A stretch of 64,000 nucleotides of DNA from Tritonibacter scottomollicae (GTDB lineage: Bacteria > Pseudomonadota > Alphaproteobacteria > Rhodobacterales > Rhodobacteraceae): contig NZ_PVUF01000014.1 in NCBI RefSeq assembly GCF_003003215.1, forward strand, positions 1 through 64,000, written 5' to 3'. The position numbers and the translations under genes were made by a program. Shown here piece after piece: positions 32,680 through 62,912 of this stretch; the stretch's first letter is position 1; every line of letters begins with the position of its first letter. The notes under the pieces are model-generated. The model did no database searches. It was not told the DNA's origin and saw only the letters and a program-made list of their open reading frames with translations.

Positions 32680-32687
32680 ACCTTACC

Positions 32688-37765: not shown

Positions 37766-38121
37766 GCTGGACCAAGAAAGTTCTCTTCGCGCTTTGTGCG
37801 GTTTTTGCCCTTCAGCTGACTGCGCTTGCCGTCATGGTGCTGCCGGATCTTTTCCGCTCAGAGCCATCCGTGGCTGTCTTCGATCCCGAGCGCAGCCTGA
37901 CGATGTTTGTCATCTGGTCCAATGGGCGGGTGGATGACGCGAAATTCCAGCAAACCCTGCCGGTGTTCCAGCAGTCGGTCCAGACGGAAATCAACCGCCT
38001 GACGGCCGAGACAGGTCAGTTGGTCGTGCGCAAAGACGCCATCCTGTCGCAAAGCCGCGCGGCCTCCGTCGATGTCACCGAAACCATCATGCAGAAGGTG
38101 CTGACCGATGCGGCGTTCTAA
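37762..38121 (+). CDS. trbI: F-type TrbI-like protein
   Basis: 119 aa. One N-terminal membrane anchor (VLFALCAVFALQLTALAVMVLPDLF), then a short periplasmic part with FDPERSLTMFVIWSNGRVDDAKFQQTLPVFQQSV. F TrbI has this layout and influences pilus retraction. It overlaps traC by four bases and the next gene by fourteen. Confidence 0.7.
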   Translation: MSWTKKVLFALCAVFALQLTALAVMVLPDLFRSEPSVAVFDPERSLTMFVIWSNGRVDDAKFQQTLPVFQQSVQTEINRLTAETGQLVVRKDAILSQSRAASVDVTETIMQKVLTDAAF

Positions 38122-40990: not shown

Positions 40991-42398
40991 GCTTATCACC
41001 GCCTCCGCTCTGCTTTGCGTTCTTGCTCCGATGGCAGTTGCGCAATCCGCCATGGATCGTGCGGCCGCGGCGGCCGGCGCCGCGGTGGATACGGACAGCA
41101 CGTTTCAGGATGGCAAGATCAACGAGGTGGTCACGCCCTTTGAAACCTCAAATCCAAACGAGGCTGGCATGAACCATACCAGCTTTGAGGATCGGATCCT
41201 TCAGATGCGGGACGCGGACAACAATCAGGGGCGGGTTCTGCGCGCCACTGAGGACAGTGCCGAGATCCGTCCGGACGTTGACATCGACGGGCAGGGTGAG
41301 TTGTTCGATGACGCAAATTGGGCGCATGAAAACGCCGACGACATCGCCGGCCAATACTTCACCAGCGAGAGCGGCAGCTGCACGACGCCAGACGTGCCGG
41401 TCTCGAACATTCGCGATGAGTTCTGCGAGAGCCTGCCACGCCGCCAGAACCATACCTGCGAATTGATCCGCAATATCTGGGTGGACCGCACCGACCGCTA
41501 CAGATGCGACAAGCGCGCGGCCAACTTCGTGAAGGTCTGCGAAAAAGTCTCCAGCTACTCCTGCAACGTCAACACAAATGCAAACGCCTGCATCTCCCGC
41601 AAGGTGCGGTTTGAAGGTGGCGATGTGACATGGAATGGCAATGAAGCAACGATTTCACTGCCAGAGCCAGATCAAAAGCCTGCCGCTCCGATCCACTGGC
41701 AAAGCCCAGACCTTACCGCTTATGCAACGCTCGCGAAGCATGAGTTCTCGATTAGCTTCTCCGACAGGTTTCAGCCGTCCAGTGTAATGTTAAAGACCGT
41801 GACTGCCGGTGGTCCGGTCCAGATCATTGGTGACGACGGGCGCCCGATTACCACCGTCGCCTCATCAATCATCAGCACGTTCGGAAATCCCTCTGGGACC
41901 TGGAGCCATTATTTTCCCGTGAACTCTGAAGATGGTCTGCTCGTGCCCATGACTGCATGGCACGATAGGGGAAGCGGCGTACAAGCGTGGTTGGAAGCCT
42001 GGATCGTAAAATTCCCACTGTCAGTGGATTGCCAGTTTGACCCCTACTGCAACCATCGGATCGACTACAACGCCACATCAAATGTCTTTGAAACTGGCTG
42101 GGACATTGGCAGGGATGCCCCTGTGGAATGGGCATTGCGTTGGGTCACGAACTACTCGGTCTATGCGAATGTCGTTCACAACACTTCAGTTACCAGAAAC
42201 GTCCTGCGCTTTCTGGAGCTAGAGCACTTCACGGAAACCAATCCAGCAGGGGCCGAGCGCTTCCGCGAAAACCGGATGACGGCCCGCGTCGTCTACAACA
42301 ACGCGACCCCGGCAAATGGCGCGGCACAGCTCACTTTCGAATTCGAAGGCGCGTGCTGTGACAGTTTCACGGATACGGGGGGCGAAACATGCGAGTGA
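40980..42398 (+). CDS. Cys-rich TraN-like mating-pair protein, first part
   Basis: 472 aa from the ATG at 40980, overlapping the trbC stop. The signal peptide ends at MAVAQ. It has a Cys-rich middle (GSCTTPDVPVSNIRDEFCESLP, HTCELIRNIWVDRTDRYRCDKRAANFVKVCEKVSSYSCNVN) and a beta-rich C-terminal half that ends in EFEGACCDSFTD. This looks like the N-terminal and central parts of TraN, the outer-membrane protein that steadies mating pairs. The following gene carries the C-terminal TraN signature, so the family protein seems to be made as two polypeptides here. Confidence 0.65.
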   Translation: MRSKLITASALLCVLAPMAVAQSAMDRAAAAAGAAVDTDSTFQDGKINEVVTPFETSNPNEAGMNHTSFEDRILQMRDADNNQGRVLRATEDSAEIRPDVDIDGQGELFDDANWAHENADDIAGQYFTSESGSCTTPDVPVSNIRDEFCESLPRRQNHTCELIRNIWVDRTDRYRCDKRAANFVKVCEKVSSYSCNVNTNANACISRKVRFEGGDVTWNGNEATISLPEPDQKPAAPIHWQSPDLTAYATLAKHEFSISFSDRFQPSSVMLKTVTAGGPVQIIGDDGRPITTVASSIISTFGNPSGTWSHYFPVNSEDGLLVPMTAWHDRGSGVQAWLEAWIVKFPLSVDCQFDPYCNHRIDYNATSNVFETGWDIGRDAPVEWALRWVTNYSVYANVVHNTSVTRNVLRFLELEHFTETNPAGAERFRENRMTARVVYNNATPANGAAQLTFEFEGACCDSFTDTGGETCE

Positions 42399-43705
42399 TT
42401 TGCACCCTTTCCCTGCTTCTGAGCCTGTTTCAGGTCTGGGTCAGCCCGGCTGTCGCTGCAATCACCTGCACGGATCCAACTTATGACTGTGTTGAATGGT
42501 CTGATGGTGAGCTGGTGGGCGGCATCAACATTGGGCGCCACTGCGCGCGCTATGCTGGTCGGCAAGACTGCGTAGACAGCGATCCCATCAACCAATGTAC
42601 GGCGCTCCAAGCCAGCGCAAAATGTGAGCGGACCAACCGCGAATGCGTCGATTACAAGAATGGTGCCTGCCGTCAGTGGCGTGAACGCTTCAGCTGCCTC
42701 AACGAGAATGAGAATATGGCTCCTGCGGTGCTGACCAGCACCGAGTTTGGGCCGACACAAGAGAATATCATCAACCAATGCTCCGAGTACGAGGGGCGAA
42801 GTGAGTGTGAGCTTGTTAACACCAGAACCACTGAGGGCGCAGAGATCCGCGACATCAATCGCAAGGATTTCTCGCGCAGCTGGTGGAAACGTGAGCGGAC
42901 GTATTCCTGTCTGGCTCCGGGTGAAGGGGACAACACCTGTGGGCCGCTTGAGAGCGATCCGACCTGCACCCTGCAAGGCGCAACCTGTCTGGTCGAGAAT
43001 GCCAACGGCGTCTGCAGCAACCGCGAGTTCCACTACACCTGCGGCGTCCAGTCCGGGGATCTTGAGACCAGCTGCGAGCCGATCAACGTCTGTGTCGGTG
43101 ACAACTGCATGGGCATCGAGCAGGAAACCTCCAGTGACTTCGGCAGCTCCGCCGCCTGGCTGAACGTACTGGCACAGATGCAGCGCGACTACCGCGCGCA
43201 GGCTGCGACCGATCCGAACGATGTTCGTTTCTTCACAGGCACCAAAATGACCTGCAGTAAGGCCCCCGGCCGGAACTGCTGTTCGACGGGTGGTATCTTC
43301 GGCAGCACCTGTCCGGAGTCGGCGGCCATTCTTCGAGACAAGCGGGCTGCCGGATCGACCCACTATGTCGGTGTAACCTGTCAGCAGAAGGTTTTGGGCC
43401 ACTGCGTCAAGAAGCGCTACCACTACTGCACCTTCAACTCGAAGTTTGGTCGCGTCTTCGTCGAAGAGTTCAAGAAGCAGGTCGAGGAAGGCTGGGGCAC
43501 ACCTCATGCTTCGGATTGTGGCTCTGTCACCATCGAAGATTTCGGCAATGTGGACATTGAAGAGATGGATCTGTCCGAGGTGTTTGGCGACATCATGGGG
43601 ACCATCCAACTCCCGGTGTCTGAGGGCATTCAGGACTTCTTCGAAGATCGCTTTCCTGATGCCGAGGGCGATGCGTCAGGCGCATTCGAGGAGGTTGGCC
43701 AATGA
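42389..43705 (+). CDS. traN: Mating-pair stabilisation protein TraN (C-terminal Cys-rich type)
   Basis: 438 aa with its own signal peptide (SLFQVWVSPAVAA) and about thirty cysteines. The C-terminal part has the TraN signature: GRNCCSTGGIFGSTCPESAAILRDKRAAG, then YVGVTCQQKVLGHCVKKRYHYCTFNSKFGRVF. Overlaps the preceding gene by ten bases. Each of the two TraN-like proteins has a separate signal peptide, so the split is not a recent frameshift. Confidence 0.8.
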   Translation: MRVICTLSLLLSLFQVWVSPAVAAITCTDPTYDCVEWSDGELVGGINIGRHCARYAGRQDCVDSDPINQCTALQASAKCERTNRECVDYKNGACRQWRERFSCLNENENMAPAVLTSTEFGPTQENIINQCSEYEGRSECELVNTRTTEGAEIRDINRKDFSRSWWKRERTYSCLAPGEGDNTCGPLESDPTCTLQGATCLVENANGVCSNREFHYTCGVQSGDLETSCEPINVCVGDNCMGIEQETSSDFGSSAAWLNVLAQMQRDYRAQAATDPNDVRFFTGTKMTCSKAPGRNCCSTGGIFGSTCPESAAILRDKRAAGSTHYVGVTCQQKVLGHCVKKRYHYCTFNSKFGRVFVEEFKKQVEEGWGTPHASDCGSVTIEDFGNVDIEEMDLSEVFGDIMGTIQLPVSEGIQDFFEDRFPDAEGDASGAFEEVGQ

Positions 43706-44094
43706 ACCGGCGCATATTCCTCCTGTCTTCCTTCTCCTTGGTGACAATGCCTGCGCTGGTCGTGGCGCAGGGAAATGTTGGGGTCATCTTCGTGGGCGCA
43801 TCCTGGTGCGCGTTCTGCAAATCTGCCGCCCCGGTTCTGGCCGCCATGACGCAACCGGCGGGTATTCCGGTTCTTGTGGCCTCGCATGACGCCCGCCCCA
43901 TCCCGCCCTTTGCGGAAATGGTGGATGCCCGCACGCATCCCATCGCCTCGCAAATCAAGGCGCTTCCCACAACCATGATCTATTCGCAGGAGGCCGGAAC
44001 CGTGACGGGACAGATCTCGGGCTACCGCAACGCGCGCCAATATGCGCAGTCCGTCAAAGCGGCCATTCTCGCAGCTGCAGGGGGGCAGGGATAA
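43702..44094 (+). CDS. Periplasmic thioredoxin-like protein
   Basis: 130 aa with a signal peptide (MNRRIFLLSSFSLVTMPALVVAQ). The active site is GASWCAFCKSAAP and the cis-Pro loop KALPTTMIYS. It probably shuffles or makes disulfides in the Cys-rich Tra proteins. It directly follows traN and overlaps traF at its end. Confidence 0.8.
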   Translation: MNRRIFLLSSFSLVTMPALVVAQGNVGVIFVGASWCAFCKSAAPVLAAMTQPAGIPVLVASHDARPIPPFAEMVDARTHPIASQIKALPTTMIYSQEAGTVTGQISGYRNARQYAQSVKAAILAAAGGQG

Positions 44095-44912
44095 TGCTCA
44101 AGCCTGCAACTCTTGCCCTCCTGCTGGCCTCCGTCGCAGCCCCGGTACAAGCCCGGCTTACCTGCAATGGGGCCGAAGTGGACGGCTGGCATTTTTACTG
44201 CGACCCCGAACCTGCCAAGGAGCCGGAACCCGCGCCACCGCCGCCTGAACCGGAAGCCAAGAAGCAACCGCAGGATCCCGAAGAGCCAAAGGAAATGACA
44301 GCGACGGAAGAGATCGAGGCATTCCGCAAATACGCGGATGAGCTGAAGCATCGCGCCATTCTCGATCCGACCCCGGAAAACGTGCAGGCCTATATGGAGG
44401 TCAACAAGCAGATGGCGCAGCAGGCGGCACGCTTTGCAGCGGTCTGGCAGCGCGTTCTCTTTGGCACCCCGCACCTCGATGCAAATGTCAGCCGCCCACT
44501 GACCCAGATGGGCACCAATATCTATCAGGATCAGCGCAACGCAGCAGAGCAGGCCGCTTTGCAGCGGGCCGCGCAGGATGCCGGTCTGATCTTTGTCTAT
44601 GACGATCCGGTTGATTGCCGCCTCTGTCTGGCACAGGCGCAGATCCTCGACGCTATGCGGAACGCATACGGCGTGGAAATCCTCGCGGTGTCCACCGATG
44701 GCAGTCCGATTCAATACTTCCCTGATGCCGTGCCCAATGAAGGCCAGCTCGAAGCGCTGGACCTTGCTGACAAGCCGCGCCCCTTCATTGCCATTGTCGA
44801 TCCCACCAGCGGCGAGACGCAGCTGATCGGGGGCGGGTTGCTGACGGAAGACCAGATCCTTGAGCGCATCTACGTGGTTCGGGAAGTGCCCATGGGCGAA
44901 CGGTTTGAGTGA
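44094..44912 (+). CDS. traF: F-type conjugal transfer protein TraF (thioredoxin-like)
   Basis: 272 aa with a signal peptide ending at PVQARL. A Pro/Glu-rich linker (residues about 40-65) is followed by a helical part (FRKYADELKHRAILDPTPENVQAYMEVNKQMAQQA) and a thioredoxin-like domain with IFVYDDPVDCRLCLAQAQIL, giving a CRLC pair. F TraF normally lacks CxxC, while P-type homologues keep it. Role: periplasmic pilus assembly and disulfide handling. Confidence 0.85.
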   Translation: MLKPATLALLLASVAAPVQARLTCNGAEVDGWHFYCDPEPAKEPEPAPPPPEPEAKKQPQDPEEPKEMTATEEIEAFRKYADELKHRAILDPTPENVQAYMEVNKQMAQQAARFAAVWQRVLFGTPHLDANVSRPLTQMGTNIYQDQRNAAEQAALQRAAQDAGLIFVYDDPVDCRLCLAQAQILDAMRNAYGVEILAVSTDGSPIQYFPDAVPNEGQLEALDLADKPRPFIAIVDPTSGETQLIGGGLLTEDQILERIYVVREVPMGERFE

Positions 44913-44925
44913 AGGAGCAGGTACA

Positions 44926-46161
44926 ATGTCATTTTCCATCAACAACACCGCAGTAGATCCGGCCACGGAAGAGGGCCAGATCCGTCTTGGCAAGGCGCAT
45001 CAGGAGCGCAGCCGCGTCATCTGCACTTGCAGCTCACCCGCGCCCGCCATGTATGTCGCCTGCGTCAATGGCCGGTTTATCCTGAAACGGATGCCGGGCA
45101 GCGGGCCTGAACATGCACCGGGTTGTGACTCCTTCCTCCCTCCTGAAGATCTTTCCGGCCTTGCACAGGTGCAGGGCAACGCGATCAAGGAAGATCTTGA
45201 AACGGGCATCACCTCTCTGAGGGTCGATTTTTCCCTGTCGATGGGCAGCAAGCGGCCGGCACCGCCGCCGCCGTCTGGCAAAGCGCCGACCGAGGCCAAG
45301 ATCACACCCCGCAAGCTCGGGCTATCGAGCCTGTTGCAGTATCTGTGGCATGAAGCCGACCTGGTGAAATGGACGCCGGCCATGAAGGGCAAACGCTGGT
45401 GGGGTCCGGTGCAGCGTGCCATTGGCACCGCAGCCGTCGGAAAAACCGCCAAGTCTCGCGATCTGCGCGATATCTTGTATGTGCCGGAAGTCTGGAAGCC
45501 GGAGCTGAAGGCGCAGAATGCAGCCCGCCGGGCAAAACTCCTGCGCACCCTGCAAGCTCCGGAGCGGGGCACCGCGCCGCTTGGTCTGGTCGTGGCGGAA
45601 TACAAAACCCATGAAGCGACACGGATGGGCGCCCGCTTCCTGTTCAAACACGCCCCCGATTGCGCCTTCTTTGCGGAAGCGGATCTGGTGAAGAAGTTCG
45701 AGACCGTCTTTGCCCATCAGTTGATGCTCGCGGAAACGCTGGGCGATGTGCATGTGATGGTGATCGCCACGTTCAATGTCGCCAAGGCCGGTTATCCGGT
45801 TCTGCGCGAGATCGGCATGATGCTGGTGACAAACACCTGGATCCCGTTTGAAAACCTCCGCGACTACGAGCTGATCACCGCACTGACAGAGACCGACCGC
45901 GCGTTTCTGAAATCTCAGCGATTCATGCTGGCCGATGCCACGCCGATTGCCTCGGCGGTGCTGACGGATCTCGCCAGCCCGATGTCACTGTTTGCCGCCT
46001 CACCTTCAGCCAATGCCGATGAGATTGCTGCCCTGGGCGAGGTCGCCGCCGATGGCACCTATCCGGCGTGGCTCTGGATTGAAGACGATCTGATGCCAGA
46101 GCTGCCCGCAAAAGGCGCGCAAGTGGCTGAGGCCTCCCTCATTGAAAGGAAAGACGCATGA
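44926..46161 (+). CDS. DUF1173 family protein inside the tra operon
   Basis: 411 aa from the ATG at 44926, preceded by GGAGCAGG. Seen are ICTCSSPAPAMYVACVNGRFILKRMPGSGPEHAPGCDSF (a Cys/His cluster) and SLLQYLWHEADLVKWTPAMKGKRWWGPVQRAI, as in DUF1173. No signal peptide, so cytoplasmic. Function unknown; members often sit in conjugative or integrative elements. The gene lies between traF and traH, overlapping the traH start by four bases. Confidence 0.72.
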   Translation: MSFSINNTAVDPATEEGQIRLGKAHQERSRVICTCSSPAPAMYVACVNGRFILKRMPGSGPEHAPGCDSFLPPEDLSGLAQVQGNAIKEDLETGITSLRVDFSLSMGSKRPAPPPPSGKAPTEAKITPRKLGLSSLLQYLWHEADLVKWTPAMKGKRWWGPVQRAIGTAAVGKTAKSRDLRDILYVPEVWKPELKAQNAARRAKLLRTLQAPERGTAPLGLVVAEYKTHEATRMGARFLFKHAPDCAFFAEADLVKKFETVFAHQLMLAETLGDVHVMVIATFNVAKAGYPVLREIGMMLVTNTWIPFENLRDYELITALTETDRAFLKSQRFMLADATPIASAVLTDLASPMSLFAASPSANADEIAALGEVAADGTYPAWLWIEDDLMPELPAKGAQVAEASLIERKDA

Positions 46162-47549
46162 AAAAGCTGTTCGTAAACTGTGCGTTTGTCGCCGCCAGCC
46201 TCTTTGCAGCTGGTCCGTCGCAGGCCGATGTAGGGTCTGACCTGAAGAATTTCTGGGAGCGCACCGGCGGTGGCGTGAACGTCACCAAACCCACGGCCTA
46301 CCGAGGTCAGCAGGCGGGCTATGCCACGCTCGGCTCTCTGTATCTGCGCACCCGACCGCGCAACAGTCAGCTGGCCACGATCCAGCTGCCCTCGATCCGC
46401 GCGGGTTGTGGTGGCATCGACATCTTTGGTGGCGCGTTTTCCTTTATCTCCGAGGACGAGCTGATCGCGCTGATGGAAGCGATCATGCAGAACGCTGCCG
46501 GGTTTGCATTTGAGCTGGCGCTGGAAAGCCTGTCTCCGTCTGTTCAGGAAATCGTCGCCAAGCTGCGCGACCTGATGCAGCAAGTGAACTCCACCAACAT
46601 CAATTCCTGCGAAGCCGGTCAGCTGCTCACCTCATCGCTTTGGCCCAAGATGGACGGCGCATCCCAGCACGTTTGTCAGACCATCGGCGGCTACACGGGC
46701 CGTTTCGCCGACCGGGTGGCCTCCCGCCACGGCTGTGGCACTGGTGGCAATCACAGCTCCACCATGGACCGGGCGGATGGCGCGCTCGCGGATCAGGTGC
46801 CCACGGACGTCAACTATGCATGGCGCGCAGTGAAGAAGAACAACTTCCTGTCCTCGAACCCGCGCATTGCGGAATTCTTCATGACGCTCACCGGTACGAT
46901 CATCACCGTTGCGGCGGAGGATGACGATACCAGTCCGACGCACCGCACCATTCCTGCGCGCGCCCTGTCACCTGATGCGGCCAAGGCGCTGGTGGAAGGC
47001 GGCGCCTACAAAAGCCTGCGCTGCGACGAAGTGAATGAATGTCTGAACCCGGTCATGCGCGATCTGACACTCAATGCAAATGACGCTCTCTTTGCTGTCA
47101 CCGCCAAGGCTATCCAGGATCTGTCGGACGCGATCAGCAACGACACTGAGCCACCGGATGAAGCCATTGCGCTGATCAACCTCACATCAGTCCCGATCTA
47201 TGAGCACTTGGTCACGGCCAAGAGCTACAAGTACAAATTCGTTCAGGACGACATCAACTCGATGGCGGAGCTGGTCGCTGTGGATCTGTCGATTGCCTAC
47301 ATTGATGAAGGCGTGAGCGAGATCCTGAACAGCGCCGCCAATGTCGATATTGCCGGCGATCTGAACCGGGAGTTTCAGGAAAAGGTCAGCCACACCAAGG
47401 GTGTGCTGCAGGATCTTCGCGCCTCCGCGCAGCGCAAATATGCGGAAGCCCTGCGCAACCTGGAGCGGCTGCATCTCGCCAAGGGCGAACTGGCTGCTTC
47501 GTCCAACACCATCTTTGGCAACATGATCAACGTGTCGGGAGGACAATAA
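46158..47549 (+). CDS. traH: Conjugal transfer protein TraH
   Basis: 463 aa with a signal peptide (LFVNCAFVAASLFAAGPSQA). Conserved parts include FWERTGGGVNVTKPTAYRGQQAGYATLGSL, QLPSIRAGCGGIDIFGGAFSFIS and QHVCQTIGG. TraH is a periplasmic/outer-membrane linked pilus assembly factor. Normal length for the family. Confidence 0.92.
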   Translation: MKKLFVNCAFVAASLFAAGPSQADVGSDLKNFWERTGGGVNVTKPTAYRGQQAGYATLGSLYLRTRPRNSQLATIQLPSIRAGCGGIDIFGGAFSFISEDELIALMEAIMQNAAGFAFELALESLSPSVQEIVAKLRDLMQQVNSTNINSCEAGQLLTSSLWPKMDGASQHVCQTIGGYTGRFADRVASRHGCGTGGNHSSTMDRADGALADQVPTDVNYAWRAVKKNNFLSSNPRIAEFFMTLTGTIITVAAEDDDTSPTHRTIPARALSPDAAKALVEGGAYKSLRCDEVNECLNPVMRDLTLNANDALFAVTAKAIQDLSDAISNDTEPPDEAIALINLTSVPIYEHLVTAKSYKYKFVQDDINSMAELVAVDLSIAYIDEGVSEILNSAANVDIAGDLNREFQEKVSHTKGVLQDLRASAQRKYAEALRNLERLHLAKGELAASSNTIFGNMINVSGGQ

Positions 47550-47553
47550 CCCC

Positions 47554-50500
47554 ATGCCCGAACTCGAATTCCATACTGTTGGTGGTGGCTTCTACCTTTA
47601 CGACATCTTCAACTACCTCGCAGCCTTCACCGGCTCGGGGAGCTTCGGGGCTTTGCTCTATGGGGGCATCGCCGCCGGGATCTTTGCTGCCAGCATTCAA
47701 CTGGTCGTCTTTGGAGCCGTCCGGCAGGTCTTTACCTATTTTATCGGAGCCATGCTGGTAGTGGGCATCGGCATCGGTCCCAAGGCGCGGGTGGTAATCA
47801 TGGATTCCACCGTGCCACTGGGGATCTACGGCGTTGTCGATGGCGTGCCGTGGTCCGTTGCCTGGGTCGGCTCTCTGACATCGAGGACCGGGGCCGCGAT
47901 CACCGATCAGATGGAAACGCTGCTCGCCGCCCCGGATGACCTCACCTACCAAAAATCCGGCATGATGTTTGGCTCCACGATCATGAGCCAGGCGGCACGC
48001 TGGCGCGCGGTGACTCCCATTGTTCACGACAGCCTCGTGAACTTCATGGAAAACTGCATGGTCGATGGTTCCAACATTGGCTTGGTGGATACTGGAAATT
48101 TGGGGCATGCGGGCGATCTCTATGCGTTCATCGGCGCCTATGTCCCGAACTCTTTGGCCTACTTTGATCCGGTGCTCGATGAAACCACCACTTGTAAAGA
48201 TGGCTGGCCACGCATTCAGGAGCGTCTCAACAATGAAGTGGTCAATGTGCTTCGTCAGAAAGCCGCGGCGCAGTTCGGCCTTCGTCGCGGAGGGGACGTC
48301 ACACTTGCCGCTCAGAAAATGCGGGCCACCCTCTCTGACTTTCAAAACTACATCGGTATGACCTCGGCCGGATCGACGGAGACGATCCGCCAGACCATGC
48401 TGACGAACTCCATGGACGGTGCAGTCCAGCGCCTCATTGCCAGCTCGGGCAACAATGCTGCCATGACGGCCTATCAAGCCGCACGGACGGAGGCACAGAC
48501 CTCAGCCAGCTACAGCGCAGTTGGGATCTCCGCCCTTAAATGGGTGCCGCTCCTGAAAATCGTGTTTACGGCGATCTACCTTGCCGCCTTCCCGCTGGCG
48601 GTGATCATGATGATGACGCCAATGGTGTGGAGCGTTCTGAAAGGCTACTTCGGCGGCTTCATCTGGCTTGCAGCATGGGATCCGCTTTCCGCTATCCTGC
48701 ATTCCATCGTGATGAAAGCCAGCGCGGGCTATTATCGTGAAGCCATGGGCTCCTTCCGGACCGGCACCATAGATTATCAGATGACCTTCGCCAATTACCT
48801 CGGCATCCGCGCCGTGGAGCAGGATGTCGGGACAATTGCCGGATACCTGATGATGTCCGTGCCCTTCCTCGCCACCGTGATCCTCTTTGGCGCCGGTCGC
48901 ATGGCGGGTCTTGCCACCTCGATGCTGAATGTGAGCCAGGGCGCCGGCATTGAATCCGGGCGCGAAGCGGCCACGGGCAATATCTCTCTGGCAAACGCCA
49001 GCATGAACAACTTTGCTGCAAACAAGTGGAACACCTCGTCTGTCCACGACGCCGGAGCCAGCACCGTCCGTATGGGCAATGGTGCCATGCGGACCGTCAA
49101 CTCCGATGGTTCGGTGGTATTTGGAACCGGCTCGGCGCAGTCCACCAGCGGCATGTCGGCCAGAGTTGGGCAAACCATACGGGAAGAAATCTCGGACCGT
49201 AAGGAAGATGCGGTGCGCAACGCGACCTCGCTACGCGACGAATGGAGCACGGCGGTCAATCAGACAGCCTCGAATTACGCAGACTTCGGGCGGTCTTTGT
49301 CCTCGGGGACATCCGTTTCCAATGACCAGTCCACGTCGCAGGGGCGTCGTCATCAACAAGAAGCGCGGGAAGCCCATTCCGCCGTCGAGAGCTTTGCGAA
49401 AGAGCATGGGATTTCCCTCGATGCGGCTTACAAGGTCGCCCTTACCGCTGGCGTGAAAGGCGGAAGCGGCGGCGGTGGCACAGGTCTTTCTGCTGGCCTC
49501 GATGGTACGATTACTGGAACTGGCCTCGATCAGGACGCCTACCGCCGTGCTGAGAATGCGGCCCGTGAATCTGGCCTCTCAGAAACAGTCGCAAAATACG
49601 GCGATGCGGTGAATGCCATTCGCGCCAGCGAGACCAGCAATCTGACCAATACGGAAAGTGGCGGCGACCGCTGGAGCATCGAGGATGTTAAGCGCAAAGG
49701 CGAAACCTATGCGGAGGCACGCGAAGAGGCGCAAACACTCGCCTCGGCAGAAAGCAACCTCTACTCCCACGGCGTCAGCTATGACAGTCAGCTGACAGAC
49801 GCTGTGATCGGGGAATGGCGCGAAGCTGGTATCAGCGATGAACAGATTTCCAGCTTGCTGAACCCAAAATCAACCGCTGGCGTCAAAGCTCAGGAAGCAG
49901 CGGTTGAACAGGTTCTACCCAACCTGCTGCAAGAACTTGGCCTCGACAGGCCGAACCCTGGCCTCGCACAGGCTCATACGCTCAGCCGCCCGGAAGAAGA
50001 GATTACCACAAACAAGCTGCCGTCGGCCGGGGTTGAGCATACCCAAGACTACAACCGGGTCAGAGCAGCGACAGACAATGTGTCATCCGTCATGGACGGC
50101 CGCCGCAACACCATGACCGATGAAACCAATGCAAGCGCGACAGAGCACGAGCGCGCCGTAGTGGAAGGGCAGGACTTTGGTGTTGTTCCGGGTGCAGTGG
50201 CGAAAGTAGGTAGTACGCTTTCTGATATAGCAGACAGCGCCGCTGATGCTTGGAATGGTGCTTCCTCTGCAATCACCGGCACGCCTCAGCTCACCAATTA
50301 CGACCGTGACGTGATGATCCGGACCATCCATGGAGAGGCCGGTCGCGAAAGCGATATCGGGCAAGCTGGTGTGGCCCATGTGATCATGAACCGCGTCGAC
50401 GACCCACGCTGGGGAGACAATCCAGCCGAAGTCAGCCTTCAGCTGAAACAGTTCTCAGCCTGGAACAGCGGCACTGGCGGAAACAGCCTTCCTACAAAAC

Positions 50501-50751
50501 TTGAAGAAGGCAGTGAGCAATATGAGCGCATTGGCCGGATCGTCGATGGCGTCGCAGCCGGCGACATCGGCGATCCGACTGGCGGTGCGACCCACTACTA
50601 TTCCCCCAAAGGCATGGCAGCTCATGTCGCTGCGGGTGAACAATCCAACGAAATTCCAACCTGGCTGGGGCAGGAATCCCAAGCACGCGGACATGACAAC
50701 GTAACCATTGGCGGCCACATCTTCACTGGTCTCAAGAGGGACGGGGAATGA
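47554..50751 (+). CDS. traG: TraG mating-pair protein fused to a SleB-like peptidoglycan hydrolase
   Basis: 1065 aa. The N-terminal half has several membrane segments (GSFGALLYGGIAAGIFAAS, VFTYFIGAMLVVGIGIG, IVFTAIYLAAFPLAVIMMM, TIAGYLMMSVPFLATVILFG) and matches TraG, which joins pilus assembly to mating-pair stabilisation and entry exclusion. The periplasmic part is Ser/Gly rich. From about residue 913 a Hydrolase_2 (SleB-type) domain begins: YDRDVMIRTIHGEAGRES, with a likely catalytic Glu at 928, HVIMNRVDDPRW and GATHYYSPKGM. F plasmids encode this hydrolase activity elsewhere. Confidence 0.88.
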   Translation: MPELEFHTVGGGFYLYDIFNYLAAFTGSGSFGALLYGGIAAGIFAASIQLVVFGAVRQVFTYFIGAMLVVGIGIGPKARVVIMDSTVPLGIYGVVDGVPWSVAWVGSLTSRTGAAITDQMETLLAAPDDLTYQKSGMMFGSTIMSQAARWRAVTPIVHDSLVNFMENCMVDGSNIGLVDTGNLGHAGDLYAFIGAYVPNSLAYFDPVLDETTTCKDGWPRIQERLNNEVVNVLRQKAAAQFGLRRGGDVTLAAQKMRATLSDFQNYIGMTSAGSTETIRQTMLTNSMDGAVQRLIASSGNNAAMTAYQAARTEAQTSASYSAVGISALKWVPLLKIVFTAIYLAAFPLAVIMMMTPMVWSVLKGYFGGFIWLAAWDPLSAILHSIVMKASAGYYREAMGSFRTGTIDYQMTFANYLGIRAVEQDVGTIAGYLMMSVPFLATVILFGAGRMAGLATSMLNVSQGAGIESGREAATGNISLANASMNNFAANKWNTSSVHDAGASTVRMGNGAMRTVNSDGSVVFGTGSAQSTSGMSARVGQTIREEISDRKEDAVRNATSLRDEWSTAVNQTASNYADFGRSLSSGTSVSNDQSTSQGRRHQQEAREAHSAVESFAKEHGISLDAAYKVALTAGVKGGSGGGGTGLSAGLDGTITGTGLDQDAYRRAENAARESGLSETVAKYGDAVNAIRASETSNLTNTESGGDRWSIEDVKRKGETYAEAREEAQTLASAESNLYSHGVSYDSQLTDAVIGEWREAGISDEQISSLLNPKSTAGVKAQEAAVEQVLPNLLQELGLDRPNPGLAQAHTLSRPEEEITTNKLPSAGVEHTQDYNRVRAATDNVSSVMDGRRNTMTDETNASATEHERAVVEGQDFGVVPGAVAKVGSTLSDIADSAADAWNGASSAITGTPQLTNYDRDVMIRTIHGEAGRESDIGQAGVAHVIMNRVDDPRWGDNPAEVSLQLKQFSAWNSGTGGNSLPTKLEEGSEQYERIGRIVDGVAAGDIGDPTGGATHYYSPKGMAAHVAAGEQSNEIPTWLGQESQARGHDNVTIGGHIFTGLKRDGE

Positions 50752-55342: not shown

Positions 55343-58123
55343 ATGCGCAACAGAGGACACACGCAACTTGTCAGAGGCGGCCAGACGACACAACACTGGA
55401 CGCGAATGGCAACACAGGTGCTCAAGTACAGCATCTCAATGGCCGCTGCGGCCTTCTCACTCTGCTATATAATTCTGGTCGCCAATAATTACGAAATGGA
55501 TAAGGCCCGCCTGACCGGGACTTATTGGATTGCGGAATTCAACGTCGAGCAACGTGGCACTGAAGACCGCAAGCTGGACTACGTGGATCTGAGCGGCAAG
55601 CGCGTCGAGCGCACAGCCGGACAGATCTACGCAGATCGTGAACTCCGCGAGATCTACAATCGCTATTCTGCGAACGCCTGGCGCTTCATGTATATCTCGC
55701 TGATCCCGGCCGCCCTCGCCTTCGTGGTGGTGTTCGCGATCTTCGGGATGGTTGGCAACTCCCTGAAGGAAGAGGAATATATCCGGGGCGCGCGTCTGGT
55801 GACGGCCAATGAGCTGAAGGCCTGGTCAAAGCGGAAATGGCGCGAATACGAAAAGCGTTTTGGCAAAAACTCCAAGAAAGGCCCGCGCTACACGCTTGCC
55901 GGCATCGAGTTCCCGCCCAACTCAGTAGAGGCCCAGATCGGCATCACCGGGACAGTTGGTGTTGGTAAAACCAATGCGATGCATGAGTTGCTGAACACGA
56001 TCCGCGAGGCGGGTGGTCGCGCCATCATCTATGACCGGATGGGGGGCTTGCTGCGGGATCACTACGACCCGGAAAAAGACATCATCCTGAACCCCTTCGA
56101 TGAGCGCTCTGTTGGCTGGTCTCCCTTCAATGAGGTGATCTCCGCCGAAGGCTTTGCCCAGATTGCCGAGGTGATGATCCCAGACCATCCCGGTTCTCTG
56201 GATAGCTTCTGGACGCAGGCCGCGCGGCTGGTGTTCCAGTACACCGCCCGCGAGCTGGCCAAATCCGGAAAAACCACCAACGACGAATTGCGCAAGGCGA
56301 TCATGAACATTCCGTCCGAGGAGCTGGCCGAGATCGTGGCGCCAACACCTGGCGCGCACTTCTTTGGCGAGCATGTGGCGAAAACCTCCGGCTCGATCCG
56401 GGCCAATATGATCACCGAGCTGCGCTTTCTGGAATACCTGCGGGACGATGCTGACCCCTTCTCAATCCGAGATTGGGTTGTGAATGACCGGCCCGGCTTC
56501 GTGTTCCTGACCGGCAACGCGGAGCAGTCGGCGGCGGTGCGCAATATCGTCTCGACAGTCTTTGAGGTGGCGGCAAACGCGCTGATGACAACTGAGGAAA
56601 GCCGTGATCCGAAAATCTGGTTCTTCCTCGATGAGGTTCCGACCCTCAACAAGTTGCCGTTCCTGCCCAAAAGCCTTGCGGAAATCCGTCAGTTCGGCGG
56701 CGCGTTTGTCGTGGGATATCAGGTGTTCTCCCAGCTGGAGGACATCTATGGCGACAAGGCTGCGGAGACCATCTCCGGGGTATTGAACAACCGCGTTGTC
56801 TTCAACACGCCTGATTACAACACGGCGCAACGGTCCTCTCGCTCTCTGGGCGAGGAGGATGTGATCGAGCAGCAGGAAAACATCACGCTCGGCGCGAACG
56901 ACACGCGCGATGGCGTGGGGATTGTCGGCCGGCGCACACAGCGCGCGATTGTGACCCCTGCAGAGATCCAATCCCTGCCCCAGTTCGTGGCCTATTTCCG
57001 GCCCGCATATGACGCCCCAACAGCCAAGGTCCGGTTTGAACCTGTTCCAACCAAGGCAACGGCGGAAAAGTTCATCGCCTATAAGGGCAATGGGTTTGAC
57101 CAGGGCGGCATGCAGGTCTCGGCCGTCAACGTGGAAATCAAAGAGGGCGCCAAGGTCGTCGCAGGCTTTGCATCTGACAAACCGCAAGATCAGAAGGCTG
57201 AATTTTTCCGCTGGCTGGACCGCGTGCGTCCCGAAGGATCAGCACAGATCGAGGATCCAGCCAACACGTCTGAGCGGGACTGGTACTGGCAGCATTTTGC
57301 CACGGCGCGCGTGCGTGGCCTCGATGTGAAAGAGATCGCCCATCCCGATCCCTATGCTGGCTTCGCTGGCAACGGCATCGGTCAGGCGCGGGAAACCGTC
57401 TATGTCCCCTACCCCGGCGCCGCACCTGGGCCACAGACAAGCCCGCCCAAAGAAAAGGCACCAGCTGCAGCTGAAGAACCCGTTCCCTCGTCCGTAAATA
57501 ACCAACCCATTTGGCGGCAAGTACGGAACAAAGCCATTTTCCTCGACTTTGATGGCGTCCTGCACAAAGGGACATCAGGAACCTTCAATAAGTTGCCGCT
57601 TTTGGAGCAATTTCTGCGCCAGAATGATGATGTCGATGTGGTGATCTCTTCGAGCTGGCGTACAGCTGACCAAGATTATCTGGAACGCCTGTTCAGCTCT
57701 GATCTTCGCCATCGCCTGATTGGCACCACTATACCAGAAAATACAGTTCCGACCCGAAACATGGAAATCGACCTTTGGGCCGGGACCTATGGGGTGAAGT
57801 CCTATGTGGCGCTCGATGACGACGCCACCCTGTTTGATTCAGCCTGGCCCCATCTCCTTCAAACTGACGGTAGCAAGGGACTGCAGCCAGACGACATTCA
57901 TCGGCTTGAAGAATGGATTGGGGCGGGCATTTCCACCCCGGATCAAAGGCCCCTGCCCCTCTCTCTTCGTGCCCATCCGGCTTTTGGCCAAACACAGCCA
58001 GACCGGAAAACGCCCCAGCGTCCAGCATCAGCGACCAAGTTCAGACTAAGCGAAGCAGATCCCCTCGATGATGCCGCCAGAAAGTTTCTGAGCCTTGAAA
58101 CCGCTTTCGAGGAGGATCACTGA
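55343..58123 (+). CDS. traD: Type IV coupling protein TraD with C-terminal HAD-like domain
   Basis: 926 aa from the ATG at 55343; a GTG at 55322 is also in frame. Two N-terminal membrane helices (AAAFSLCYIILVANN, FMYISLIPAALAFVVVFAIFG) are followed by Walker A GTVGVGKTNAMHELL at about residue 203 and Walker B IWFFLDEVPTLNKL at about 430. This is the ring ATPase that brings the relaxase-DNA complex to the channel. After a Pro-rich linker, residues about 728-865 add a HAD-fold domain: KAIFLDFDGVLHKGT (nucleophile D735), VVISSSWRT, YVALDDDATLF. That tail is not part of F TraD. It precedes traI with one base between genes. Confidence 0.9.
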   Translation: MRNRGHTQLVRGGQTTQHWTRMATQVLKYSISMAAAAFSLCYIILVANNYEMDKARLTGTYWIAEFNVEQRGTEDRKLDYVDLSGKRVERTAGQIYADRELREIYNRYSANAWRFMYISLIPAALAFVVVFAIFGMVGNSLKEEEYIRGARLVTANELKAWSKRKWREYEKRFGKNSKKGPRYTLAGIEFPPNSVEAQIGITGTVGVGKTNAMHELLNTIREAGGRAIIYDRMGGLLRDHYDPEKDIILNPFDERSVGWSPFNEVISAEGFAQIAEVMIPDHPGSLDSFWTQAARLVFQYTARELAKSGKTTNDELRKAIMNIPSEELAEIVAPTPGAHFFGEHVAKTSGSIRANMITELRFLEYLRDDADPFSIRDWVVNDRPGFVFLTGNAEQSAAVRNIVSTVFEVAANALMTTEESRDPKIWFFLDEVPTLNKLPFLPKSLAEIRQFGGAFVVGYQVFSQLEDIYGDKAAETISGVLNNRVVFNTPDYNTAQRSSRSLGEEDVIEQQENITLGANDTRDGVGIVGRRTQRAIVTPAEIQSLPQFVAYFRPAYDAPTAKVRFEPVPTKATAEKFIAYKGNGFDQGGMQVSAVNVEIKEGAKVVAGFASDKPQDQKAEFFRWLDRVRPEGSAQIEDPANTSERDWYWQHFATARVRGLDVKEIAHPDPYAGFAGNGIGQARETVYVPYPGAAPGPQTSPPKEKAPAAAEEPVPSSVNNQPIWRQVRNKAIFLDFDGVLHKGTSGTFNKLPLLEQFLRQNDDVDVVISSSWRTADQDYLERLFSSDLRHRLIGTTIPENTVPTRNMEIDLWAGTYGVKSYVALDDDATLFDSAWPHLLQTDGSKGLQPDDIHRLEEWIGAGISTPDQRPLPLSLRAHPAFGQTQPDRKTPQRPASATKFRLSEADPLDDAARKFLSLETAFEEDH

Positions 58124-58124
58124 C

Positions 58125-61100
58125 ATGATGTCGATTTCCAACGTCTCGGCCGGGGCTGCTGCCAGCGGTTACTACAAGGAAGAAGGCTATTACAAAGCCG
58201 GATCAGAAGAGGGCCAGAAGGCTGCAACCTGGTTCGGAAAGGCCGCTGAGGAAAACGGCCTGACCGGCTTTGTCGATGACAAACAGTTCGCACAGTTCCT
58301 CGATGGTGAAGCTCCGGATGGTAAGCTGATGGGGCGCTATGTGGATGGTGAACGCCAGCACCGGCCCGGCCTTGATCTGACATTCTCTGCATCAAAATCG
58401 GCCTCGGTAGCAGCACTGGTCATTGGCGACAATCGGATCATTGAGGCCCATGACGCTGCCGTGCGCTCTGCCATGACGGTGGTGGAAGAGCGGTTCATCA
58501 AGACCCGGTTCCAGCAAGACGGGGAAATAACCACCAAGAATGCTGAAGGTATCATCGCCGGCATCTACCGACACGATACCTCGCGTGCGCTTGATCCAAA
58601 CCTGCACAGCCATGCCGTCATCGCCAATATGGCGAAGAACGAGAATGATGGCTTCACTGCCATCCGCAATGAGGCTGTCTTCAACAATCGCAAGCTCATC
58701 ACAGAGATCTACCGTTCCGACTTTGAGAACCGGATGAAGGAGCACGGGATCGCCACTGAACGCGGTAGGTATGGAGAGGTGAATATTTCCGGCATCCCAC
58801 GTGAGGTCACGGAAACATTTTCAAAGCGCCGACAGGAGATCCTAAATGCACTTGATAACAAGGGTGTAGAATATTCTGCTGATACGGCGAGCAAGGCCAC
58901 ACTGGCGACCCGTGCAGCCAAGCATAAGAACCTGGACCGGGAGGCCCTGCGCGCTGACTGGCGATCTGATGCGCTTGCCGCAGGTCTCAGCCGGGATCAG
59001 CTGGAACGCGGAACTATTGAGAACGCCCCTATCGCGCCAACGGCCCCGACCCCAATACCGCGCTCGGTTCAAGAGGCAGAGCAAACCCCTCAATCGGACC
59101 CAAAAGAGGCCTCACTCGTCGCCGGCATCGTCTCGTGGATGAAAAACCTGGTTGCAGCCCCGCAGCAACAGCAACCGAAAGCACAAACGACGCCTGATAC
59201 GATTGAAGGACGGGCCGTGAGCAAAGCCATCGAGCATGTAAGCGAGCGACACTCTGTTTATGAACGCTCCACCCTCACGGCAGCGGCGCTTCGCTTCTCC
59301 AGCGGCACCAACCTTGAAAAACTGGACAAGGAAATTGACCGGCGCATCGAGGCCGGCGATCTCTATGCCAACGGAAAGAACGGCGAACACCTCACCGATC
59401 GCGCATCGGTTGCGGTCGAAAAAGCGGTCCTGCAGACGTGGAAAGACTCTGAACAGACCCCCGGTCTCGATCTAAACTCAAGACACGCCAAATCGGGCAT
59501 CCCTGATCTTTCCGCCACCTTGGCGAAGGAAAGCACGCTGACAGCAGGTCAGCTGGCTGCGCTCGAAACCTCACTTTCCGGTCAGGGCAGGTATGTCGGT
59601 GTTCAGGGCTACGCGGGATCTGGTAAGACCTACATGGTCGAAAAACTCAGCGAGTTGGCCGGTCAGGCTGGCTATGAGGTCAAGGGCTTTGCCCCTAGCC
59701 TTCAGGCGGTCAAAGAACTGGATACCGCCCTCCCCGGATCCTCAACACTGGCGCGCGTCGTGAACAGCGAACGCAACTATCCCCAGAAAGTGGACAACAG
59801 CCGGTCGATCCTTTTGGTGGATGAAAGCTCGATGGTCTCCGCACGCGATATGCGCAGCTTCATGGACTATGCGGAGCGCACCAACGCTGCCCGCGTCGTC
59901 CTGGTCGGTGATACCAAGCAGCTTGATGCCGTGAGCGCCGGCCAACCCTTTGCCCAGCTTCAGGAGACCGGCATGCGGACGGCCGTCATGGATGAAATCA
60001 GGCGGCAACGCGATGGCACCCTGCGCGAGGCAGTGTATGACACCGTGCGTGGCGACATTGCTGGTGCCTTCGCCAAGCTGGAGAACAACATCCACAAGGC
60101 GGAAAACCCACAGCAGGCGGCAGCAGAGAAATATCTATCCCTCCCGGCCGATGAGCGATCAGAGACCCGTATCCTGACGCTCACAAACGCGTCCCGCGCC
60201 GAAATCAACGCAGTGGTTCGAGACGGGTTGAAACAGGAAGGCAGCCTCGCATCTGAGGGTGTGACTGTTTCTGGTCTTGCCCCCCGCCCGATGACGGCTG
60301 TCGAAAGGAGTGATGCGCAGAGCTACGCCGCCGGCGATGTCTTGCAGTCCCTTGTCAGCAGCAAGGATCATGGGCTGTCGAAAAACGCCCTCTACATCGT
60401 TCAGGAGGCCGACACAAAAACCAACAGCCTGACGGTCGCGCGTGAATCCGACGGGGTACGCCTCGATATCCCACTGAATGGCATGACGGGAAACAAGGAA
60501 CTCGGTGCCTCATTCATGGCCTATCGGCCGGAGGATCGAGAGCTGTCGGCCGGCGATGCGGTACGCATCCGGATCACCGACAAAGCCAATGACCTTTCCA
60601 ATGGTGAGCGAGCAAAAATTACATCCGTCGAGGATGGCGCGATTGGATTGGAAACATCCAACGGCAAGCAAATCCAACTCAATGCACAAAGCCTCGGCGC
60701 GCGCGGTCTTGAACATGATTATGCAGCAACCGCCCATTCGGTTCAGGGTGAAACTGTTGATCGGGTCATTGTGTCGATGAATGGCGGCGACAGGCTGGCT
60801 ACTCAAAAGGGGTTCTATGTGGAAATCAGCCGCGCACGGGATGAGGCGGTTTTATACACGGACAACCGGGCGGCCCTGGCAAGAAACATTGCAGAGAATA
60901 CCGGCATCCAGACAACCGCATTGGCAACACAAATTGAATCACAAAAACCACGCGAGGAAATTATCGACTCTGTTCAAGCGGTGGATAGAGCGGTCGAGCA
61001 TATAAGTGAACGCGACTCCGCATATAGCCGTGGGCATTTGACAATTACTGCTTTACAATTTGCCTACGGCTCTAGTTTTGATCAGGTCGATAAAGAAATT

Positions 61101-62912
61101 AACACACGCATTAAAGACGGTCGGTTATTTGTAAGCGGCGATGAGGGTGAAATGCTCACAGACAAGGCATCTGTTGATTTGGAGCGTTCCATTATTGCGA
61201 CGTGGCAGGCTTCCGAGAAAAGTGGCGGATTGGACCTCCCGTCCGAACAAGGACGCAATGGGGAAAGCTTACTATCCCGACGGTTAAACGTCGTCCGTTC
61301 TCTAACTGATGGTCAGCGGTCGTCAATTGAAACGGCTCTCACGGGAGAGGGGCGATATGTTGGTATTCAGGGTTATGCGGGTACTGGTAAAACCTACATG
61401 CTTGAGCGCATGTCGCATTACGCCGCGCAAGCCGGGTACGACGTAAAGGGTATGGCCCCAAGCCACCAAGCTGTGCACGAACTCGCCAGTGTACTTGGCA
61501 GCGCGGAAACCCTCGCAAAGATCACGACAGCTGAACGTCACCACCCGCAGGACGTGGACAATAGCAAGACCATTCTGGTGGTCGATGAGGCCTCGATGGC
61601 CTCAGCTCAGGACTTGCGCAGCTTCATGGATTACGCCGAGCGCACCGGTGCACCTCGTGTGGTCCTGGTCGGCGATACACAGCAGTTGGATTCCGTGGCC
61701 GCAGGTCAACCTTATGCGCAGCTGCAGAACGCCGGGATGCGGACAGCCGTCATGGATGAGATCCGCCGACAACGGAACGATGATCTGAAAGCGGCCGTCC
61801 ATCACTCGATCCGTCAGGAAATCCAACCTGCCTTCAGCCGCATGGAGGGCAATGTTCTGCAGGTGGAAAACCTCAGCATTGACGCCGCAGAGCGATACTT
61901 GTTGCTGTCCCCGAGTGAACGTGAAGGCACCCGGATCCTCACCCTCACCAATGCCTCCCGCTCAGAGATCAATAGCGTTGTCCGTGATGGGCTTTGGCAG
62001 GAGGGACGATTGAAAGGAGAAGAAGTCGAGCTGAAGGGCCTCCAAAATCGCCAACTGACCGAAACCCAACTTGCCGATGCGCGCAGCTACACCCCCGGCG
62101 ATCTGGTTCTGTCAGTGGCCACCAGCAAGGAATTCGGGCTGCAGAAAAACAACCTCTATGTGGTTCAGCAATCCGATCATCAGCGCAACAGGCTGATCGT
62201 CCAGCATGAAGAAACCGGCGAGAAATCCATCCTCCCACTCGATGCAAAGTTCAATCGCCGAGACCTCGGAAAAGCCCTTGTTGCCTATGATCGAGAGAAC
62301 CGGGAAATGGCGGCCGGCGACCAGGTGCGGTTCCGGATCACCGATCCAGAGGCGGGTGTCACCAACGGTGTTCGTGTTGAAATCAAATCAACCTCAGGTG
62401 GAATAATTGAAGCGAAAGCGCTGGATGGCAGTACCATCAGCGTGCCGCAGAACAGCATTGCAGCGCGCGGAATGGAGCATGACTACGCGGCCACTGCGCA
62501 TGCCGTTCAGGGTGAATCTGTGGATCGTGTGATCGTGGCCATGAACTCAACCGAACGTCTCGCCACACAGAAAAGTTTCTATGTGGAAATCAGCCGCGCA
62601 CGGGACGAGGCGGTCCTTCTGACGGACGATCCAGATCGTCTGTCAAAGACCATCGAAAAGCAGACCGGCATCCGGCCGACAGCGCTCGACACATGGATGG
62701 ACGGTCGTCTGATTGGCGTTCGCGAGCAGCAGCCAGAGGAAGAGAAAGCCAAGGATCAACAGCAGGAAAAAGCTGAACCCGAGAAGGAAAAGACGATCAG
62801 GGATAGGGAGCCTGACGCCCCTACCCTACCCGGCCTCTTTGAAGCGAAACTTAAAGAATTTGAAAAGCAGGCTGAACTGGTCCTGCAGCGACAGAAGGAA
62901 ATTGAACGATGA
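58125..62912 (+). CDS. traI: MobF relaxase/helicase TraI with two helicase modules
   Basis: 1595 aa from the ATG at 58125, with GGAGGATCAC upstream. The N-terminal TrwC/MobF domain shows ASGYYKEEGYYKAGSEEG (candidate catalytic Tyr), LTFSASKSASVAAL and HDTSRALDPNLHSH with H150, H161 and H163 as the metal triad. Two tandem RecD-like helicase modules follow, each with Walker A (GYAGSGKT at 495, GYAGTGKT at 1083), Walker B (LLVDESSMVS, LVVDEASMAS) and the C-terminal HDYAATAHSVQGE type motif. The modules are about 588 residues apart and similar along their length. TraI nicks oriT and unwinds the transferred strand. No helical C-terminal FinO-binding-like tail beyond a coiled coil is seen. Confidence 0.93.
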   Translation: MMSISNVSAGAAASGYYKEEGYYKAGSEEGQKAATWFGKAAEENGLTGFVDDKQFAQFLDGEAPDGKLMGRYVDGERQHRPGLDLTFSASKSASVAALVIGDNRIIEAHDAAVRSAMTVVEERFIKTRFQQDGEITTKNAEGIIAGIYRHDTSRALDPNLHSHAVIANMAKNENDGFTAIRNEAVFNNRKLITEIYRSDFENRMKEHGIATERGRYGEVNISGIPREVTETFSKRRQEILNALDNKGVEYSADTASKATLATRAAKHKNLDREALRADWRSDALAAGLSRDQLERGTIENAPIAPTAPTPIPRSVQEAEQTPQSDPKEASLVAGIVSWMKNLVAAPQQQQPKAQTTPDTIEGRAVSKAIEHVSERHSVYERSTLTAAALRFSSGTNLEKLDKEIDRRIEAGDLYANGKNGEHLTDRASVAVEKAVLQTWKDSEQTPGLDLNSRHAKSGIPDLSATLAKESTLTAGQLAALETSLSGQGRYVGVQGYAGSGKTYMVEKLSELAGQAGYEVKGFAPSLQAVKELDTALPGSSTLARVVNSERNYPQKVDNSRSILLVDESSMVSARDMRSFMDYAERTNAARVVLVGDTKQLDAVSAGQPFAQLQETGMRTAVMDEIRRQRDGTLREAVYDTVRGDIAGAFAKLENNIHKAENPQQAAAEKYLSLPADERSETRILTLTNASRAEINAVVRDGLKQEGSLASEGVTVSGLAPRPMTAVERSDAQSYAAGDVLQSLVSSKDHGLSKNALYIVQEADTKTNSLTVARESDGVRLDIPLNGMTGNKELGASFMAYRPEDRELSAGDAVRIRITDKANDLSNGERAKITSVEDGAIGLETSNGKQIQLNAQSLGARGLEHDYAATAHSVQGETVDRVIVSMNGGDRLATQKGFYVEISRARDEAVLYTDNRAALARNIAENTGIQTTALATQIESQKPREEIIDSVQAVDRAVEHISERDSAYSRGHLTITALQFAYGSSFDQVDKEINTRIKDGRLFVSGDEGEMLTDKASVDLERSIIATWQASEKSGGLDLPSEQGRNGESLLSRRLNVVRSLTDGQRSSIETALTGEGRYVGIQGYAGTGKTYMLERMSHYAAQAGYDVKGMAPSHQAVHELASVLGSAETLAKITTAERHHPQDVDNSKTILVVDEASMASAQDLRSFMDYAERTGAPRVVLVGDTQQLDSVAAGQPYAQLQNAGMRTAVMDEIRRQRNDDLKAAVHHSIRQEIQPAFSRMEGNVLQVENLSIDAAERYLLLSPSEREGTRILTLTNASRSEINSVVRDGLWQEGRLKGEEVELKGLQNRQLTETQLADARSYTPGDLVLSVATSKEFGLQKNNLYVVQQSDHQRNRLIVQHEETGEKSILPLDAKFNRRDLGKALVAYDRENREMAAGDQVRFRITDPEAGVTNGVRVEIKSTSGGIIEAKALDGSTISVPQNSIAARGMEHDYAATAHAVQGESVDRVIVAMNSTERLATQKSFYVEISRARDEAVLLTDDPDRLSKTIEKQTGIRPTALDTWMDGRLIGVREQQPEEEKAKDQQQEKAEPEKEKTIRDREPDAPTLPGLFEAKLKEFEKQAELVLQRQKEIER

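Follow-up and report, generated by a model that had tools for sequence, protein, structure and literature searches.

Why would the coupling protein of a conjugation system in some marine bacteria carry a domain of the haloacid dehalogenase (HAD) fold? The question is raised by traD of Tritonibacter scottomollicae, which occupies positions 55,343-58,123 on the forward strand of the window, i.e., the whole stretch of 64,000 nucleotides analyzed here (contig NZ_PVUF01000014.1, positions 1-64,000). Its frame is open over 926 amino acids (aa), and the encoded F-type-like coupling protein matches TrwB_AAD_bind, TraG-D_C, T4SS-DNA_transf, and HAD_SAK_2, all above the Pfam cut-offs. An earlier note, made from the letters of this DNA alone, had described a TraD fused to a HAD unit. 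We found that the protein indeed contains a HAD domain with intact catalytic-type residues.

The HAD domain of an F-type-like TraD

The Pfam search suggested in that note placed HAD_SAK_2 (PF18143) at TraD residues 732-851 (57,536-57,895), scoring 79.2 bits against a cut-off of 27.5 (E 5e-22) and covering profile positions 2-138 of 139. The suspected likeness to RNA-repair HADs is borne out by the name of the family, "HAD domain in Swiss Army Knife RNA repair proteins". Within the whole source genome, TraD is the single HAD_SAK_2 match (82.6 bits) and none of 14 control genomes contains one, so that chance offers no sensible explanation. The motifs LDFDGVLH (with D735 and D737), SSSWR (769-773), and LDDD (its three D being D825-D827) are present where they had been predicted, and their conservation was counted over 47 aligned homologues. 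Both aspartates of the HAD motif I DxD, D735 and D737, are invariant (47/47), as is R805, which by its position suits the Lys/Arg of motif III. Position 770, with S in 43 homologues and T in the other 4, was read as the motif II residue rather than position 769, because Leisingera thetidis has A at 769. The acidic pair of motif IV is formed by D825 (47/47) and D826 (46/47). Between these motif residues lie 32 (D737-S770), 34 (S770-R805), and 19 residues (R805-D825), spacings too short to leave room for a cap domain, as we infer. The domain resembles its family in the full-length match and the intact motif residues and differs from it in being joined to a coupling protein.

TraD residues 715-875 were modeled with AlphaFold2 together with 46 homologues, the alignment of 47 sequences having been chosen from the window and from the genome- and viral-locus searches. 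With a predicted local distance difference test (pLDDT) of 89.5 and a predicted template modeling score (pTM) of 0.86, the HAD fold named in the earlier note is predicted. Both ends of the model look flexible, given a pLDDT below 50 for its residues 1-5 and averages of 57 and 41 for the final two blocks. The best structure match by VIA-align was MDP-1 (Z 10.6, root-mean-square deviation 3.4, 127 residues, 16% identity), followed by SCP (Z up to 9.6), UBLCP1 (9.3), and FCP1 (9.2), with neighboring rows tied; MDP-1, SCP, and FCP1 are known as capless HADs. Polynucleotide kinase/phosphatase HADs were absent from the 50 VIA-align rows, which carries no weight. Foldseek against the PDB returned nothing at E <= 0.001, its best HAD match being SCP3 (E 0.016), and several unrelated folds ranked high in the list. 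A sequence search of solved structures with the HAD domain alone gave no match, and the only one obtained with the 47-row profile (E 0.82, a dehydrogenase) was rejected.

Outside the HAD, two hydrophobic segments at the N-terminus precede the ATPase core (TrwB_AAD_bind, residues 182-565, 55,886-57,037; 454.5 bits against a cut-off of 20.5, E 3.5e-136), which identifies a coupling protein of the VirD4/TrwB type, and TraG-D_C matches with E 3.2e-22. Since the score for the NCBIfam equivalog of F-type TraD (TIGR02759; 416.7 bits, E 1.7e-124) stays below its cut-off of 521.35, we regard the protein as a divergent F-type TraD and term it F-type-like. A Pro/Ala-rich linker (residues 691-729, 57,413-57,529), recognized from the TraD alignment and bordering the low-confidence start of the modeled domain, leads into the HAD, and the C-terminal tail (residues 857-926, 57,911-58,120) follows it; in unfused sisters a matching tail comes directly after the linker. 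In comparison to known F-type TraDs (TIGR02759; PF10412), the hydrophobic segments, the ATPase core, the tail, the traD-traI order, and the F-type region are shared, whereas the score below the equivalog cut-off and the HAD of ~125 residues between core and tail set the window protein apart.

On the same strand, traI (58,125-62,912), encoding a MobF-type relaxase-helicase (PF08751 TrwC and NF041492 MobF above cut-off), starts directly behind the traD stop with an ATG at 58,125 or 58,128. The F-type mating-pair genes, including traE, traK, traB, traC, traW, traU, traF, traH, and traG, lie upstream (32,107-50,751, forward strand). Nine out of ten upstream proteins scanned match F-type transfer families above the Pfam cut-offs; with TraU, TraH, TraF, TraG, TraC, TraE, TraK, and TraW all above theirs, the region is of the MPF_F type. 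The 487-aa frame at 40,935-42,398 follows the TrbC-like frame in the place where one would look for TraN, and Pfam gave no match for it at E 0.01. No RNA ligase or kinase was detected by Pfam in TraD, TraI, four further window proteins, or the ten upstream proteins scanned. TraI contains two AAA_30 helicase stretches. Among relatives of the locus, the MobF gene is much shorter in L. thetidis (3006 bases) and of similar length in Pukyongiella (4815 bases).

Occurrence and history of the fusion

The same fused TraD is encoded on NZ_CP136707, a complete plasmid of T. scottomollicae (99.8% identity), and on pBMJM1_2 of L. thetidis (80.6%), and a fused TraD of 924 aa, its HAD 63% identical, occurs in AB1, a Rhodobacteraceae bacterium from Bugula neritina. 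D735, D737, S770, R805, D825, and D826 are conserved in all three distinct fused TraDs, and the usual TraD tail follows in frame after the HAD in the window and in L. thetidis. Because the fusion recurs in L. thetidis and in the Bugula-associated AB1, an assembly error is excluded, as is a degenerate linker. An artefact of assembly or frame, in favor of which nothing but the rarity of the fusion can be put forward, is refuted by these independent records and deserves practically no credence.

The fusion is nevertheless rare. Out of seven plasmid records with at least 80% identity, two are fused; the remaining five match just 75-81% of the query, and the four of them that were aligned lack the HAD while retaining the linker and the matching tail. 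Among the 18 genomes of the window's genus, the window TraD is fused and a further genome encodes a close, HAD-free TraD, which is 87% identical over residues 1-713 and then 55% over 865-925. Extension to 394 genomes of the family yielded seven with a close TraD, one of them fused. The possibility raised in the earlier note that the segment is a common degenerate linker of TraD proteins is thereby answered in the negative: the HAD is an optional accessory of TraD, conserved where present.

Three plasmids, NZ_CP136707, NZ_CP109789, and NC_023146, have traD-traI like the window, yet are typed MPF_T. All three lie outside the 25 best plasmid matches of the window TraU, and unfused relatives lie inside. 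NZ_CP136707 has flanking sugar-transport genes in common with the window, and the 42.8 kb read of it contain no F-type mating-pair gene.

Ratios of nonsynonymous to synonymous substitution rates (dN/dS) were calculated by the Nei-Gojobori method, with dS near or above 1 making all values rough. Between the window and L. thetidis the ATPase has the lowest ratio (~0.03) and the linker the highest (~0.57), with the N-terminal part (0.15), the HAD (0.16), and the tail (0.23) in between. For the HAD of L. thetidis against AB1 the ratio is 0.21, and for the window against AB1 dS of the HAD was not computable. By these ratios, the HAD is under purifying selection. Its GC content is 51.7% in comparison to 58.2% for the TraD core.

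Trees of the TraD core with 10 and with 16 rows (the latter without the TraD of one genome, G163) both require three changes of the fused state, and a single clade of fused TraDs was rejected in the 10-row tree (approximately unbiased test, p-AU 0.0006). The three fused HADs themselves form one clade (99/97) with AB1 outermost, matching the order of the core tree; this agreement is weak evidence, because chance gives it in one out of three cases. We read this history as one old gain followed by about four losses, or as cassette swaps by recombination; three independent gains of the HAD are possible as well. A tree of the HAD domain was calculated from 62 chosen rows, namely 43 of the 80 genome loci, 7 of the 80 viral loci, and the 12 rows of a further alignment. 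Therein, a group of 26 rows with modest support (84/89) unites the fused HADs, those of MPF_F/MOBH plasmids together with Citrobacter, a few genome loci, and six HADs from viral contigs; the HADs of Comamonas C11 and Pseudomonas aeruginosa fall outside.

Homologues outside TraD

Of 72,556 plasmid records, a single tblastn query matched 2024, including 1769 of conjugative type, in a highly redundant set with many enterobacterial entries. Nine lineages of stand-alone plasmid homologues were examined, and in six of these transfer genes are found near the homologue. On R27 (IncHI1), a transglycosylase-HAD pair ends 246 bases from the facing end of a TraG-like gene, with thioredoxin and DsbA genes beyond; on IncHI2 plasmids, the same pair is followed by two other genes and, further on, by trhH. 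The Klebsiella IncHI1B homologue follows traG at a distance of 9.3 kb that includes genes for transglycosylase, thioredoxin, and DsbA, and on beta-proteobacterial MPF_F/MOBF plasmids the HAD lies 8.8 kb behind the large frame following traH. Further beta-proteobacterial MPF_F/MOBF loci have the same neighbors and no tra genes in the stretch viewed. Escherichia coli pECTOK-001_1 encodes its homologue 4.6 kb from mobI; in the weakly matching P. aeruginosa p4 (E 5e-3), mobC and a DotA/TraY gene flank the homologue. The Raoultella locus has the same accessory set and no tra gene in the stretch viewed; no transfer genes lie within 6 kb of the HAD in Comamonas C11 and Citrobacter pTEM-2452. Stand-alone HADs of IncHI-type and beta-proteobacterial MPF_F plasmids resemble the fused domain (27-43% identity) and, in several lineages, its proximity to transfer genes, but they are separate genes, some with an anchor-like start, and not its nearest sisters in the HAD tree. 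Such an anchor-like N-terminus, with a hydrophobic peak of 2.33-2.44 at about residues 1-34 followed by basic residues, is present in three (Klebsiella, Raoultella, and K. grimontii) of the eight stand-alone homologues tested and lacking in the other five. One lineage with its own anchor and another attached to TraD represent two routes to the inner membrane, which suggests that place matters.

For R27, published expression data can be related to the homologue. The gene order trhF, trhH, trhG, HAD, transglycosylase, four genes, and dsbA fits R0126-R0135 exactly if the HAD is R0129, and this assignment by gene order, which is ours, makes R0129 the putative R27 homologue. Table 1 of PMC7366339 gives values of 169 versus 45 for R0129, a 3.76-fold increase at 25 C, the temperature promoting R27 conjugation, and R0130 and R0135 are listed there as 3.13-fold and 3.37-fold up. 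According to its authors, these non-tra genes are induced under other conjugation-favoring conditions, too; the accessible text of PMC7366339 does not discuss R0129 itself. As a separate observation, the window TraG (47,554-50,751) has a C-terminal cell wall hydrolase domain (Hydrolase_2, residues 932-1057, 52.4 bits against a cut-off of 27). R27 has lytic transglycosylase and HAD genes together beside a TraG-like gene, and in the window transfer proteins carry the two corresponding activities as fused domains.

Beyond plasmids, 11 of 385 genomes at class level match PF18143 (7 above cut-off), and at family level 1 of 295 genomes matches the window HAD, namely the window's own. HAD frames were examined for 47 of the 80 genome loci; a TraD fusion is found solely in L033, the others being frames of 64-272 aa. 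Besides two of the 80 genome loci with a tra gene nearby, seven more (L036-L040 and L058, with L040 repeating L039, as well as L050) have accessory neighbors of conjugative-plasmid types. A neighbor scan was based on 57 of the 80 loci, reduced to 56 since L053 has no HAD frame, and on 107 of 111 listed open reading frames (ORFs), four ORFs of L036 and L058 with already established neighbors being left out. Recurrent neighbors among the 107 ORFs are calcineurin-like phosphoesterases (5-6), further HAD_SAK_2 frames (4), HipA (3), and dual-specificity phosphatases (2). Homologues were found in 195 of 50,697 phage records, T4-like phages among them, and the PHROGs match is phrog_1818, a family without assigned function. 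The stand-alone homologue of phage RB43 (L193, 142,851-143,324) is close to two genes annotated as 5'-3' deoxyribonucleotidases, with rnlB ~5 kb away.

A candidate phosphatase at the coupling protein

As a working explanation, held tentatively, we favor a capless phosphatase on a tether to the coupling protein, serving as a conditional helper of transfer, with nucleic-acid ends as the slightly favored substrate. The HAD would function as a metal-dependent phosphatase where the mating channel opens to the cytoplasm, a site suggested by the N-terminal hydrophobic segments of TraD together with the TraM-recruiting role of the F TraD tail, as described in a review (PMC7555446). The ATPase core and the tail would do the ordinary work of a coupling protein, and the HAD arm may act on macromolecules arriving with the relaxosome, most likely by stripping terminal phosphates from nucleic-acid ends so that transfer-linked replication or repair can proceed. 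Nucleic-acid ends are favored because of the Pfam family name and the RB43 neighborhood. Coupling proteins act on the cytoplasmic side of the donor; an action during DNA entry, which the earlier note had considered besides exit, is therefore unlikely. Lineages that lost the HAD and kept TraD would fit a conditional accessory, and a comparable function is probable for the stand-alone relatives encoded on some other conjugative plasmids, of which one lineage has its own membrane anchor.

Several observations weigh against a transfer helper acting on nucleic-acid ends. A tra gene lies within the stretch fetched at only 2 of the 80 genome loci (L033 with TraD and TraI, L062 with a TraC match; 32 queries, of which TraB was uninformative), so the family as a whole is not bound to conjugation. 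Since most close TraDs lack the HAD, transfer does not need it, and two of the three fused loci are on plasmids with traU outside the 25 best plasmid matches of the window traU. The fused HADs group most closely with five viral-contig HADs (89/80) and not with plasmid HADs, which makes a phage-like source as possible as a plasmid gene. Among the 107 neighbor ORFs of the 56 loci, no ligase or polynucleotide kinase appears in the 25 of 70 families listed. Finally, the best VIA-align matches are presumably protein phosphatases, and thus lean toward protein substrates.

The last point leads to the strongest competitor, rather doubtful in itself, namely a protein phosphatase which dephosphorylates relaxosome or channel proteins and thereby tunes the start of transfer. 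MDP-1, SCP, UBLCP1, and FCP1 all act on proteins, HipA-type kinases stand beside chromosomal homologues, and the location in TraD would put the HAD beside the relaxosome. However, identities to those structures are 7-17% and Z scores within 1 of each other are tied, so that the fold does not fix the substrate, and no kinase partner turned up in the tra region, where no search aimed at one was made. The occurrence in T4-like phages, the two deoxyribonucleotidases beside the RB43 homologue, and the calcineurin-like phosphoesterases as commonest neighbors would also suit a small-molecule enzyme, either a nucleotidase or a destroyer of the nucleotide signal of a defense system. HADs for small substrates mostly have a cap, whereas this active site is uncapped; moreover, such a task would need no tether to a DNA pump, and PADLOC gave no match for three proteins. 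We thus consider it unlikely. Catalysis could even be irrelevant, with the HAD being a spacer or docking module acquired by chance and now being lost, as its presence in one of seven close TraDs, the three state changes on the core tree, and the linker and tail kept in unfused sisters may suggest. The dN/dS of ~0.16-0.21 and the intact motif residues in all three fused TraDs speak for selection on an active site, which renders this explanation improbable.

Passages of PMC7434980 and PMC7431656 describe extra C-terminal parts on coupling proteins as a known theme, so that added C-terminal domains are known in principle, and the phosphatase-type HAD version was found in no paper searched. The main texts of these two papers and of PMC12857230, all dealing with coupling proteins or type IV secretion systems, do not contain the word "phosphatase". 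Literature searches for a TraD-HAD fusion or for HAD proteins in conjugation, in which subscription journals are sparsely covered and long result lists comprise the first 20 entries, gave nothing on point. The accessible text of PMC7824862 contains neither "HAD phosphatase" nor "HAD domain", and that of PMC11288057 names haloacid dehalogenases just in a reference. Polyvalent proteins of conjugative elements (PMC5512222, "phosphatase" zero times in the text available) do not explain the fusion.

An active HAD arm of TraD would mean that a phosphatase step is part of some conjugation machines. On a wider scale, HAD_SAK_2 proteins might be unrecognized accessory phosphatases of F-type and IncHI-type conjugation. 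Fused to TraD or equipped with their own anchor, they would stay at the channel mouth in the inner membrane and act on phosphorylated ends or on proteins of the transfer complex; this is possible, although we regard it with some doubt. If it is true, the TraD fusion reveals where they act. For the products of plasmid genes labeled "HAD domain-containing" or hypothetical, the fusion suggests where they may function, and the stand-alone HADs near transfer genes on several plasmids hint that a helper step in DNA transfer has been overlooked.

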